Assembly: GCA_027064525.1 (NCBI GenBank)
Contig: JAMOPJ010000019.1
Location: 1-53,522 of the forward strand
Direction of reading: 5' to 3'
DNA: 53,522 bases
Source: Archaeoglobaceae archaeon
GTDB taxonomy: Archaea; Halobacteriota; Archaeoglobi; Archaeoglobales; Archaeoglobaceae
Below the pieces are notes generated by a model, which was given only the letters and a program-made list of their open reading frames with translations, did not search any database and was not told where the DNA came from. The number at the start of each line of letters is the position of its first letter. Positions within the stretch are counted from its first letter, which is position 1. A program made the position numbers and the translations under genes. Below, piece after piece: positions 29,365 through 34,083 of this stretch.

Positions 29365-32300
29365 ATGATTCAAGCCATTTACGCTAACCTCTGTCAGGTT
29401 TGTGGTGAAGATTTTACAGTTGAGGAGGCGCTAAAAGGAATCTGCAAGAAGAAGAACTTTAGAATGTGCAGATATAAGTTCGATAAGATCGTTGAGGAAT
29501 TCTTCGAATTCTTCAGAAAGATAATTGGAGAACCCCGTTCTATTCAACGTTTCTGGGCCAAGAGGATTTTGAGAGGTGAGAGCTTTGCAGCTGTAGCTCC
29601 TACTGGAATAGGTAAAACTTCATTCGGTTCGGCTGTAGCTCTTTTCCTCGCTTTGAGAAAGAAGAAGAGCTACATAATCTTGCCTACGACCCTTCTGGTT
29701 AAACAGGTTGCTGAAGATCTCGCAAGGTTCTGCGAGAAGTACGGGGTTAATGCCGGACTTAATGATGAAGATGGAGATGTGGGAATCCTCTACTACCACG
29801 GCGGACTTAAGAAGGATGAGAAGGATAGATTTTTCGAGCTCTTGGAGAGGAGGAAGTTCGACATCCTCGTCACAACCGCTCAATTCTTATCGAAGCACTT
29901 CGCAAACCTCAAGGGTTTCACGTTCGACTTCATATTTGTAGATGATGTCGATTCGGTTTTGAAGGCTTCAAAGAACGTCGATAGGATTCTTCAGCTTTTA
30001 GGCTTCTACTACGATGCTAAGGAGAGGAAGTGGAAGGGGAAGGCCAAAGGCTGTCTGATGGTTTCAACGGCGACGGCGAAGAAGGGACAGAAGGTTCAGC
30101 TGTTCAGAGAACTGCTCAACTTCGATGTGGGAACTTCTACGCACGCTGTGAGAAACATAGAGGATGTTGCGATAAATAGTGAGGACATCGATCTGCTCTG
30201 CGAGATAATGAAAAAGATGGGAACGGGAGGGATCATATACGCCAGAACGACTGAGGAGGCAGAGAAGCTCTACGATATGCTGAAGGAGAGGGGCTTTAAG
30301 ATCGGGATAGTTACAGCCGGAAAGAAGAAGGACTACGAGCTGTTCGAAAAGGGTGAAGTTGATCACCTCGTCGGAACTGCCTACTACTACGGAACGCTCG
30401 TGAGGGGCTTGGATTTGCCCGAAAGGATAAGATTTGCAGTTTTCTTCGGTGCTCCGGTTTTCAGGGTTAGGGTGGAGGACATAGACACCGCGAGCGTTGG
30501 CATAATAAGAACCCTTGCTTTGATCTTCAGAACGCATGAAGATGTCAAGAGGTTCATCCCCTACCTGTCGGTGCTCGACAAGCGGGAGGATATGCTGAAC
30601 GAGCTCAGGGGAATTCTCAAGCGATTGCTCGAAAAAGGGGAGATTGAAGAGAGGGACATAGTCGTTCGGAAGGGGGAGATAATATTTCCGGACGTCAGAA
30701 CCTACATTCAAGGATCAGGCAGAACTTCGAGACTCTTCGCTGGAGGAATCACTAAGGGTGCATCCTTCCTATTCGAGGCGGATGAGGAGATTCTGAAGGC
30801 TTTTATTCAGAGGGCGAGCTACTACGACATCGAATTCAAAAATTTGGAGGATGTGGACTTCGAAAAGCTCATTAAGGAGATAAATGAGACGAGGGAGCGA
30901 TTTAGGAGGAAGGCAGAGTTCGACGCGATAAAGCCGACCCTTTTCATAGTTGAAAGCCCGACCAAAGCCAAGCAGATCTCCCGATTCTTTGGACAACCGA
31001 GCATAAAGGTTTTCACAAATAAAGATGGCGAAGTTGAGCTCGTGGCTTATGAAGTTCCAACGGCTGAGCATGTTTTGCTCGTTACCGCATGCATCGGACA
31101 CGTAACGGATCTAATCACGAATCAGGGATTTCACGGAGTTATCGTCAACGGCAGATTCATACCTATATACGCATCGATAAAGCGTTGCAGAGATTGCGGT
31201 TATCAGTGGACTGAAGAAAGAGAGGAATGCCCAAAGTGCGGGAGCAAGAACGTCGACGATTCGAAGAGGAGGATTAACGCGTTGAGAAGGCTTGCACACG
31301 ATGCGGAGAGGATAATAATCGGAACAGATCCGGATTCAGAAGGAGAGAAGATTGCTTGGGATCTGAGGAACTTGTTGGCTGGATGTGGAGAAGTCAAGAG
31401 AGCTGAGTTTCATGAGGTTACGAGGAGAGCTGTGAGTGAAGCCCTTAAGAATCTGAGGGATATAGACGAGAATCTCGTCAAGGCTCAGATCGTTAGGAGG
31501 ATTGAAGATCGTTGGATTGGCTTTGTGTTAAGTCAGAAGCTCTGGAGTGTTTTTGGTGATCGCAACCTCTCAGCCGGAAGAGCGCAGACGCCGGTTTTGG
31601 GCTGGGTGATTCAGAGGTTCGAGGAGTTCAAGCAGAAGAAGAAGATAGCAATCGTTAGAGACATAGATCTCGTTCTTGAAGTCGATGATAATGCTAAGAC
31701 CGGAAAGACGAAGCTTAAGCTTGAGATAGAGCTTTTGAAGGAGAAAGAAGAGGAAAAAACACCTCTTCCACCCTATACAACGGATACGATGCTCAGAGAT
31801 GCTAACGCGATACTGAAAATTCCAGCTAAGGATGCGATGAAATTGGCGCAAGACCTATTCGAATCCGGGCTGTGCCTAACACCCGGTTCGCTCGTTATGA
31901 TGGGGGACGGTAGCATAAAGAGGATCGAAGAGATCGCAGAGGGGGAGAAGGTACTCGGTCTGAACGACTTACACGAAAAGAAGGCGGAGGTCTTGAAGTT
32001 CTGGAGGATACCATACAGGGGTAAGCTGAGGAGAATTGTGCTCGACAACAACTACACGATTGAAGCATCACCCGACCACGGTCTTTTCGTCTACAGGGAT
32101 GGTAAGTTCGGATGGGTTTCCGCTAAAAATATTAAGAGTGGCGATTACGTTGCGGTCTCGTTCGACACCAAGGTCGAGAGGAGGAAGGTAAATTTACTCG
32201 AACTCTTGGCAATGCTCGGGATTACCGACGTCTGCGTGAAGTTCAAGGAAGGCTCGGAGGTGTTCGAGAGGCTCAGAAATAGAATCATGAAGCTGAGTAC

Positions 32301-34083
32301 GAGCACCAGATACAAATACATTAAGAACAGAACGGTTCCCCTCAGGTATCTCGTTGAATGGGGTGTGGATCTGAAGGAAATTGCGAAGGAAGTCGAGGAG
32401 ATATACAAACAGAGGGCATCCGCAAAGAAGATGCGAATGTTCGAGCTGAGCGAGGACTTCTGGTATTTTGTGGGATTAGTGATGGGTGATGGGTCCGTCA
32501 GAGAAGGAAAGGTGGCGATAGCCCAGAAGGACGTTGAAAGGATCGAGGCCATAGTCAGGGAGATATTCCCATTCCTGCACTGCTGGACTTCTCGAGCTCA
32601 GGTTTGGATCGCGAATTCAATCATAGCTGAAATTCTGAAGAGGTTGGACGTTAGAGGCAGGCTAAACGGGATGGTGTTCTCCCTGCCCGAAGAATGGATA
32701 AACGCCATGATCGCGGGATACATCGATACGGACGGTTGCGTATCTTTAATGTTCGATAAGAAGACTGGCAAGCACAACCTCAGAATAATGATTACATCTA
32801 AGGACAAGGAGAAGCTCGAAAAGATAGGGTTCTATATGTACTCTATCGGAATACAGAACTCGCTTCATGAAGATAAGAGAACAGGGGTGTGGTCGCTCAT
32901 AATTAGTAACAGATCGCTTGAAAGGTTCAGATCCAAGATCGCTAAGTACCTCAGGATCAAAAGAGAGTCGTTTGAAAGGGCTTACGAAACGTACATTAGG
33001 GAACATAAGCAGTTCGAATCTGATCTCGTCCCGTTTGGAGATCTCTTCAGAATGCTTAAGTTCGATTATGGAGTTAGGAATAGAATACTTAAGGAGCTTG
33101 GAATAGATACGTGGAACTGGAACGATTGTAAGTGCATTCCGAGAGAGAAGCTCAAGAAGGTGTTGGAATTCGCAGAAGATTCGGAGATCAAGTATTTCCT
33201 GATGGAACTTCTGAATTCCAACATCACTTGGATTAAGGTGAAGGAGACGGAGGAGGTGTATTATGAAGGTTACATTTACGATGTCACAACTACGACTTCG
33301 AACTTCTTTGCAAACACGGTACTCAATCACAACTGTACATACCATCGAACCGACTCCACTCGTGTCAGCGATGTGGGATTGAGAATAGCTAAGGAGTTTT
33401 TAGGTGATGAATTCGTTCCGAGGGAGTGGTTCATGGAAGGAGCCCACGAGTGTATAAGACCGACAAGACCGATTCCAAAGGAGACTCTGCAGAGGCTGAT
33501 TCAGGAGGGAGTGATTCAGGTGGAGGGTATCACTTGGAGGCATCTGGCTTTATACGACCTCATATTCAGACGTTTCATGGCGAGCCAGTGTAAGCCTTAC
33601 CGCGTCAAGATCGCAAGGTATCTGATCCGATACGATGGAAAAGAGGTCGAAGAGGAGAGAGTTCTGAATGCAGAAGGAAAAGCTGTAGAGCTCTACAGGT
33701 GGAGCGTTTGGGTTAAGAAAGAGTTGCCGGTGGGCAAGATTACAGTGGAGGCTGAGATAAGAACCGTTCCAAAGGCTCCTCTGTTCACACAATCGGACAT
33801 AGTCCAGTTGATGAAAGAAAGAGGGATTGGCCGACCTTCCACATACGCTACAATAGTTGACAGGCTTTTCATGAGGAACTACGTCATAGAGAAGAACGGC
33901 AGAGTGATTCCGACGAAAAGGGGAATAGAGGTTTACAGATACTTGGCAAGCAACTACGGAAGTTTTGTTTCGGAAGAGAGGACGAGGCTTTTGGAGGAGA
34001 AGATGGACGCGATCGAGAGAGGTGAGCTCGATTATTACAAAGCCTTGCAAGAGCTATATGAGGAGATAAGACAGATCGCCTGA
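29365..34083 (+). CDS. rgy: Reverse gyrase, intein-containing
   Basis: The precursor has 1572 residues: 1085 of reverse gyrase and a 487-residue intein. In order: N-terminal zinc finger (CQVCGEDF), SF2 helicase with Walker A PTGIGKTS near residue 80 and DEAD-like FVDDVDSV, latch region, then from about residue 528 the topoisomerase IA domain (FIVESPTKAKQI, a second zinc finger CRDCGYQW...CPKCG, GTDPDSEGEKIAWDL) and the active-site segment TYHRTDSTRVS directly after the intein. It introduces positive supercoils using ATP and is the marker of hyperthermophiles. ATG 29365 gives the conserved MIxAIY opening; an A/T-rich box about 25-35 bases upstream suggests a near-leaderless transcript. Confidence 0.96.
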   Translation: MIQAIYANLCQVCGEDFTVEEALKGICKKKNFRMCRYKFDKIVEEFFEFFRKIIGEPRSIQRFWAKRILRGESFAAVAPTGIGKTSFGSAVALFLALRKKKSYIILPTTLLVKQVAEDLARFCEKYGVNAGLNDEDGDVGILYYHGGLKKDEKDRFFELLERRKFDILVTTAQFLSKHFANLKGFTFDFIFVDDVDSVLKASKNVDRILQLLGFYYDAKERKWKGKAKGCLMVSTATAKKGQKVQLFRELLNFDVGTSTHAVRNIEDVAINSEDIDLLCEIMKKMGTGGIIYARTTEEAEKLYDMLKERGFKIGIVTAGKKKDYELFEKGEVDHLVGTAYYYGTLVRGLDLPERIRFAVFFGAPVFRVRVEDIDTASVGIIRTLALIFRTHEDVKRFIPYLSVLDKREDMLNELRGILKRLLEKGEIEERDIVVRKGEIIFPDVRTYIQGSGRTSRLFAGGITKGASFLFEADEEILKAFIQRASYYDIEFKNLEDVDFEKLIKEINETRERFRRKAEFDAIKPTLFIVESPTKAKQISRFFGQPSIKVFTNKDGEVELVAYEVPTAEHVLLVTACIGHVTDLITNQGFHGVIVNGRFIPIYASIKRCRDCGYQWTEEREECPKCGSKNVDDSKRRINALRRLAHDAERIIIGTDPDSEGEKIAWDLRNLLAGCGEVKRAEFHEVTRRAVSEALKNLRDIDENLVKAQIVRRIEDRWIGFVLSQKLWSVFGDRNLSAGRAQTPVLGWVIQRFEEFKQKKKIAIVRDIDLVLEVDDNAKTGKTKLKLEIELLKEKEEEKTPLPPYTTDTMLRDANAILKIPAKDAMKLAQDLFESGLCLTPGSLVMMGDGSIKRIEEIAEGEKVLGLNDLHEKKAEVLKFWRIPYRGKLRRIVLDNNYTIEASPDHGLFVYRDGKFGWVSAKNIKSGDYVAVSFDTKVERRKVNLLELLAMLGITDVCVKFKEGSEVFERLRNRIMKLSTSTRYKYIKNRTVPLRYLVEWGVDLKEIAKEVEEIYKQRASAKKMRMFELSEDFWYFVGLVMGDGSVREGKVAIAQKDVERIEAIVREIFPFLHCWTSRAQVWIANSIIAEILKRLDVRGRLNGMVFSLPEEWINAMIAGYIDTDGCVSLMFDKKTGKHNLRIMITSKDKEKLEKIGFYMYSIGIQNSLHEDKRTGVWSLIISNRSLERFRSKIAKYLRIKRESFERAYETYIREHKQFESDLVPFGDLFRMLKFDYGVRNRILKELGIDTWNWNDCKCIPREKLKKVLEFAEDSEIKYFLMELLNSNITWIKVKETEEVYYEGYIYDVTTTTSNFFANTVLNHNCTYHRTDSTRVSDVGLRIAKEFLGDEFVPREWFMEGAHECIRPTRPIPKETLQRLIQEGVIQVEGITWRHLALYDLIFRRFMASQCKPYRVKIARYLIRYDGKEVEEERVLNAEGKAVELYRWSVWVKKELPVGKITVEAEIRTVPKAPLFTQSDIVQLMKERGIGRPSTYATIVDRLFMRNYVIEKNGRVIPTKRGIEVYRYLASNYGSFVSEERTRLLEEKMDAIERGELDYYKALQELYEEIRQIA
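31873..33333 (+). other. Intein with LAGLIDADG homing endonuclease in reverse gyrase
   Basis: The insert starts with Cys (CLTPGSLVMMGDGSIKRIEE) and ends ...VLNHN, followed by Cys of the extein, the required residues for protein splicing (N-terminal Cys, penultimate His, terminal Asn, +1 Cys). A block-B-like ASPDHGL follows. The middle carries two LAGLIDADG-type motifs, VGLVMGDGSV and IAGYIDTDGCV, each with the catalytic aspartate in GDG/TDG, so the endonuclease appears intact. It sits at GL/CTYHRTDS, two residues before the catalytic tyrosine, the insertion point used by the reverse gyrase intein of methanococci as far as I recall. Confidence 0.93.

Follow-up and report, generated by a model that had tools for sequence, protein, structure and literature searches.

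The DNA analysed here (the window) is a stretch of 53,522 nt from an Archaeoglobaceae archaeon, whose genome is called G000 in what follows, and it contains a reverse gyrase gene that is interrupted in frame by an intein. When translation starts at the ATG at position 29365, the product aligns with the A. fulgidus reverse gyrase (1gl9) from residue 1, and the host protein scores 1306 bits against the NCBIfam rgy profile. The features of the locus are the following:

29365-34083, + strand: reverse gyrase gene, interrupted in frame by the intein
29365..31872, + strand: N-extein, 836 aa, with the helicase domain, toprim and the first part of the topoisomerase domain (matches to TIGR01054, DEAD and Toprim); last residues LFESGL
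31729..31872, + strand: probable co-conversion tract, about 150 bp directly upstream of the insertion and continued beyond it in the +1 codon; it resembles the occupied alleles of the sister genus rather than those of the congeners
31873..33333, + strand: intein, 1461 nt, 487 aa, codons 837-1323, from Cys1 to His486-Asn487; supported by Pfam, NCBIfam, two orthologues and the fold
32068..32079, + strand: block B, Ser66-Pro-Asp-His69 (T-x-x-H in nearly all the other inteins examined)
32467..32493, + strand: LAGLIDADG motif 1, FVGLVMGDG, residues 199-207, catalytic Asp206 (PF14528/PF00961)
32707..32736, + strand: LAGLIDADG motif 2, MIAGYIDTDG, residues 279-288, catalytic Asp287 (PF14528)
33334..34083, + strand: C-extein, 249 aa plus stop, first residues CTYHRTDS (matches to Topoisom_bac and TIGR01054)
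33334..33336, + strand: codon of the Cys+1 nucleophile, TGT (ACG, Thr, in the congeners)
33340..33342, + strand: codon of the catalytic tyrosine (+3), within the conserved CTYHRTDS

The interval 31873-33333 is exactly the one in which an earlier note on this DNA had placed an intein, and the frame is continuous with both exteins, with no stop codons. In the Pfam search the insert matched Intein_splicing (E = 8.1e-34) and LAGLIDADG_3 (E = 2.5e-16), and in the NCBIfam search it matched intein_Nterm with 35.2 bits against a cut-off of 24.5; these matches, like those of the reverse gyrase, lie far past the level of chance. The G+C fraction (0.463 in the intein and 0.472 in the exteins) was considered the same. 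The tyrosine at +3 is aligned to the active-site Tyr of A. fulgidus and, on the added basis of topoisomerase IA chemistry, we take it to be the catalytic one. The earlier note had the insertion fall just before this tyrosine: the same motif is indeed interrupted, but two C-extein residues (Cys+1 and Thr+2) intervene between the end of the intein and the catalytic residue.

The sequence features of a class 1 intein are found in the insert: Cys1, the C-terminal His486-Asn487, Cys+1, insertion in frame, a Hint fold and the block B His69, with Ser66 in the place of the block B Thr; moreover, at 47 sites in related genomes the host gene lacks the insert and encodes a continuous protein. The splicing residues and the two LAGLIDADG motifs (with GDG and TDG) that had been named from the sequence are all present. 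Judged from these residues, the intein is very likely competent in splicing, and it is plausible that the unspliced precursor would have no topoisomerase activity. An intein that is dead because its splicing site is broken, with an inactive reverse gyrase as the consequence, could be suspected from Ser66 and from block F, which reads TTSNF and lacks the His of some inteins. We considered this highly improbable. Precisely, block B is T-x-x-H in both orthologues and in 13 of 15 other inteins checked, the remaining two being MCM inteins in which the His is missing, but the GyrA intein of G017 has SLNH, hence Ser at the same position, and the exchange of Thr for Ser appears to be conservative, natural and the sole departure from the consensus, no essential residue being lost. 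Block F is of the same type in both orthologues, and the exteins are intact and conserved (the C-extein is 92-94% identical to those of the congeners).

For the endonuclease, both catalytic Asp residues are kept, with invariant flanking residues, in all three orthologous inteins. An AlphaFold model based on three sequences only (pLDDT 49) was replaced by one based on an alignment of 11 inteins of the same order, which reached a pLDDT of 90.7 and a pTM of 0.90. A complete Hint domain and an intact LAGLIDADG homing endonuclease fold are confidently predicted in this model, whose best Foldseek match was 2cw7 (PI-PkoII, E = 1.8e-22), followed by TliVMA (7qss) and PI-PfuI (1dq3), while its endonuclease part matched I-DmoI. 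PI-PkoII, TliVMA and PI-PfuI match over the whole fold, that is Hint plus a two-motif LAGLIDADG endonuclease, but they lie in other host genes and are only 16-17% identical to the intein of G000. It could be argued that splicing has been kept while the predicted endonuclease is inactive, the intein now being a vertically inherited passenger, as decay of the endonuclease is a common outcome of the homing cycle (PMC4071816). We regard this as unlikely in view of the full length of the intein, the two Asp residues with their invariant flanks in three orthologues and the confidently modelled intact fold.

The search for the insertion site covered 57 genomes of the order Archaeoglobales and, by sampling, the phylum. 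The site was readable in 50 reverse gyrase genes, 48 from the order and two from just outside it. It was occupied in 3 of the 50 (G000 and two sister-genus species, G015 and G017) and empty in the other 47, including all four congeners of G000 (G035, G036, G037 and G038); the empty site that the earlier note had proposed to look for in sister strains was therefore found, and inheritance is patchy rather than vertical in all relatives. In G037 the reverse gyrase had seemed to be a split gene, which was rejected: runs of unknown bases in the assembly interrupt it, and its site is empty. When one genome per GTDB species was searched for further carriers with two short peptide patterns, a search in which very near genomes may be omitted, only the record of G017 was returned (contig JALWDS010000042.1, a MAG named 'Archaeoglobaceae archaeon'). 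Relatives of the G000 intein were also sought in viral contigs, phages and plasmids, where no close one was found and one weak match (25%) was listed under a phage terminase gene; in viral contigs no reverse gyrase was found.

The inteins of G015 and G017 lie at the same site, have similar lengths (488 and 485 aa), the same motifs and 71% identity to that of G000; they differ in belonging to the sister genus and in having Thr, not Ser, in block B. Between the G000 intein and these orthologues dN is close to 0.2 and the synonymous sites are saturated, which points to an old intein under purifying selection. The residue at +1 was Cys in all three occupied alleles, whereas in the 47 empty ones it was Ile in 41, Thr in 4 (all four congeners) and Cys in 2 (G016 and G050). 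The sister genus, formed by G015, G016 and G017, has Cys+1 throughout, hence also in an empty allele. The two empty alleles with Cys+1 (L018 in G016 and L038 in G050) may be either splicing-ready targets or former carriers.

Splicing by nucleophile displacement requires Ser, Cys or Thr at +1 (PMC10643990). With Ile+1 in 41 of 47 empty alleles, an insertion without conversion of the flank should leave the enzyme unspliced. Hence we infer that Ile+1 probably blocks splicing in most of the order and limits the spread of the intein, and the element would be confined to lineages whose +1 residue is Cys or Thr, or to invasions accompanied by co-conversion.

We then compared the flanks of the insertion with the rest of the gene. 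In the extein tree, (G036,(G000,(G035,G037,G038))) stands beside (G016,(G015,G017)), so that G000 is placed within its own genus, among empty congeners, and the two genera are sisters. Over the whole gene the DNA of G000 is 80-81% identical to that of the congeners and 74-75% to that of G015 and G017. This order is reversed in the 50-codon segment that ends just past the insertion: G000 is 81.3% and 82.7% identical to the occupied alleles of G015 and G017 and 72-76% to the congeners. Since the congeners show a normal 82% to each other in this segment, the odd one is G000; the empty allele of the sister genus (G016) reaches only 72% there. The maximum of the scan of the whole gene is the segment at the insertion (P < = 0.001 by shuffling of 5-codon blocks), and nothing comparable was seen when the same test was centred on the empty congeners. 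At +1, G000 has the codon TGT where its congeners have ACG.

We considered as traces of mobility a patchy presence together with marks of conversion in the flank, and both are found here, the former as 3 occupied sites of 50 and the latter as the upstream tract and the +1 codon. The simplest reading of the tract and of the Cys+1 codon is a homing footprint, left by a gain from a donor that would have been a relative of the sister genus. This footprint rests on about 150 bp, on a handful of genes and on the upstream side only. The GyrA intein of G000 provides an internal contrast, as no co-conversion was seen there beyond about 30 nt.

An ancestral intein of both genera, kept in G000, G015 and G017 and precisely lost elsewhere by deletion or by replacement with an intein-free allele, would also give this distribution. 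Footprint aside, two gains explain it nearly as well as one gain and three losses, and the two genera are in fact sisters. In addition, the intein of G000 is less similar to its orthologues (71%) than is its N-extein to those of G015 and G017 (79-80%), so that intein divergence equals or exceeds host divergence, and the empty G016 has the Cys+1 that a former carrier would have. However, three precise losses are required, two of which would have had to end in the identical Thr codon, ACG, at +1, and the odd flank is that of G000, the empty congeners being normally alike in that region. We thus hold descent from a common intein to be improbable, and we read the lower identity of the intein relative to its N-extein as indicating that the transfer was not recent or that the donor is unsampled. 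Together, the patchy distribution and the flank footprint favour homing over simple vertical descent.

On these grounds we propose, with a probability of about 0.88, that the insert is a full-length class 1 LAGLIDADG intein, a selfish homing element, which invaded the active site of reverse gyrase by homing. The precursor would be translated whole, and the Hint domain would then excise the intein by an acyl shift at Cys1, transfer to Cys+1 and cyclisation of Asn487, the ligation of GL-CTYHRTDS restoring reverse gyrase. The excised intein would act as a site-specific endonuclease against the empty allele, and repair of the break from an occupied allele would copy the intein with its flanking DNA. 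As to the direction of transfer, we infer that the intein came from a donor with kinship to the sister genus, together with some 150 bp of the flank upstream and with the codon for Cys+1, where the congeners have Thr. The mobility of the intein, which the earlier note had taken to be still capable of homing, gains support from its full length, its conserved endonuclease, the empty congeners and the footprint, all of which are read from sequence.

The earlier note had also suggested that splicing could place reverse gyrase under the control of temperature or redox, a claim for which no specific sequence support was found. That the intein is regulatory, its conditional splicing gating reverse gyrase to the benefit of the host, is made conceivable by the insertion at the catalytic tyrosine, by the use of cysteines as both catalytic nucleophiles and by the conditional splicing documented for archaeal RadA inteins (PMC5790916). 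Nevertheless, active sites are where any homing intein is expected, the intein is missing in 47 of 50 relatives, the last 160 residues of the N-extein before the junction contain no Cys (the nearest is at -163) and no conserved added feature was seen, so that we deem such a role very unlikely.

A second topoisomerase is interrupted as well. GyrA inteins are present in G000 (C12:3500-7000, L089) and in G017 (C2:43300-47500, L104), directly after the catalytic tyrosine (AAMRY/C...HN/TECRL), and among 54 genomes with a GyrA match only these two have long GyrA reading frames. Between G000 and G017 the identity of the GyrA intein (72.2%) equals that of its extein (71.6%). In both genomes, hence, an intein lies at the catalytic Tyr of gyrase (GyrA, RY/T) as well as of reverse gyrase (GL/CTY), two enzymes with opposite effects on supercoiling. 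That splicing conditions set the two activities jointly, and so control DNA supercoiling after translation, strikes us as a very long shot; the pairing of the two inteins in one cell does offer a system in which to ask whether splicing ever affects supercoiling.

Inteins of reverse gyrase (r-Gyr) with a LAGLIDADG endonuclease are recorded in InBase for Methanocaldococcus jannaschii and Pyrococcus horikoshii, hence in the same host protein. The available portions of the literature on reverse gyrase and inteins, including Archaeoglobus profundus, contain no description of the present site. A published parallel in mechanism is the MCM-d intein of haloarchaea, in which the empty alleles have a splicing-unfit Pro+1, the occupied ones a fit Ser+1, and invasion requires co-conversion of the flank (PMC10643990); it differs in the gene concerned and in having been tested experimentally, whereas the case of G000 is deduced from sequence. 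The element is ordinary in kind, and what distinguishes this copy is the unusually clear traces of its jump from a related lineage. It represents a well-resolved case of natural intein homing between archaeal genera, with empty congeners, a co-converted flank and the required +1 residue carried along, and it suggests that a single residue (Ile versus Cys or Thr at +1) restricts the alleles in which this intein can establish itself.

At least 11 inteins are present in the 1.9-Mb genome of G000, with 11 N-terminal profile matches. Their hosts, identified by reading the host sequences, are the DNA polymerase II large subunit, PolB, MCM, an RFC subunit, GyrA, IF-2, GlmS, an XPB-like helicase, two ribonucleotide reductases (one with two inteins) and reverse gyrase. 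Within the order, inteins are concentrated in the genus of G000, in the sister genus and in one other, most genomes having none or one. In the MCM inteins of G015 and G017 (L061 and L062) another residue takes the place of the His of block B (TPETKV) and the C-terminal His-Asn is kept; these may splice differently or be impaired. The intein of the DNA polymerase II large subunit of G000 (L001/L048) apparently ends in Gln and not in Asn (IVSAQ/CDGDED). In the 398-aa intein of the XPB-like helicase (L007, G000 C41:12147-15362), which has good splicing ends, the LAGLIDADG match is absent, and the endonuclease region has therefore probably decayed. Finally, a free-standing protein frame, which may belong to an intron, lies at G000:C2:50813-51376 (L044, L050); it is 283 aa long and has two LAGLIDADG domains.
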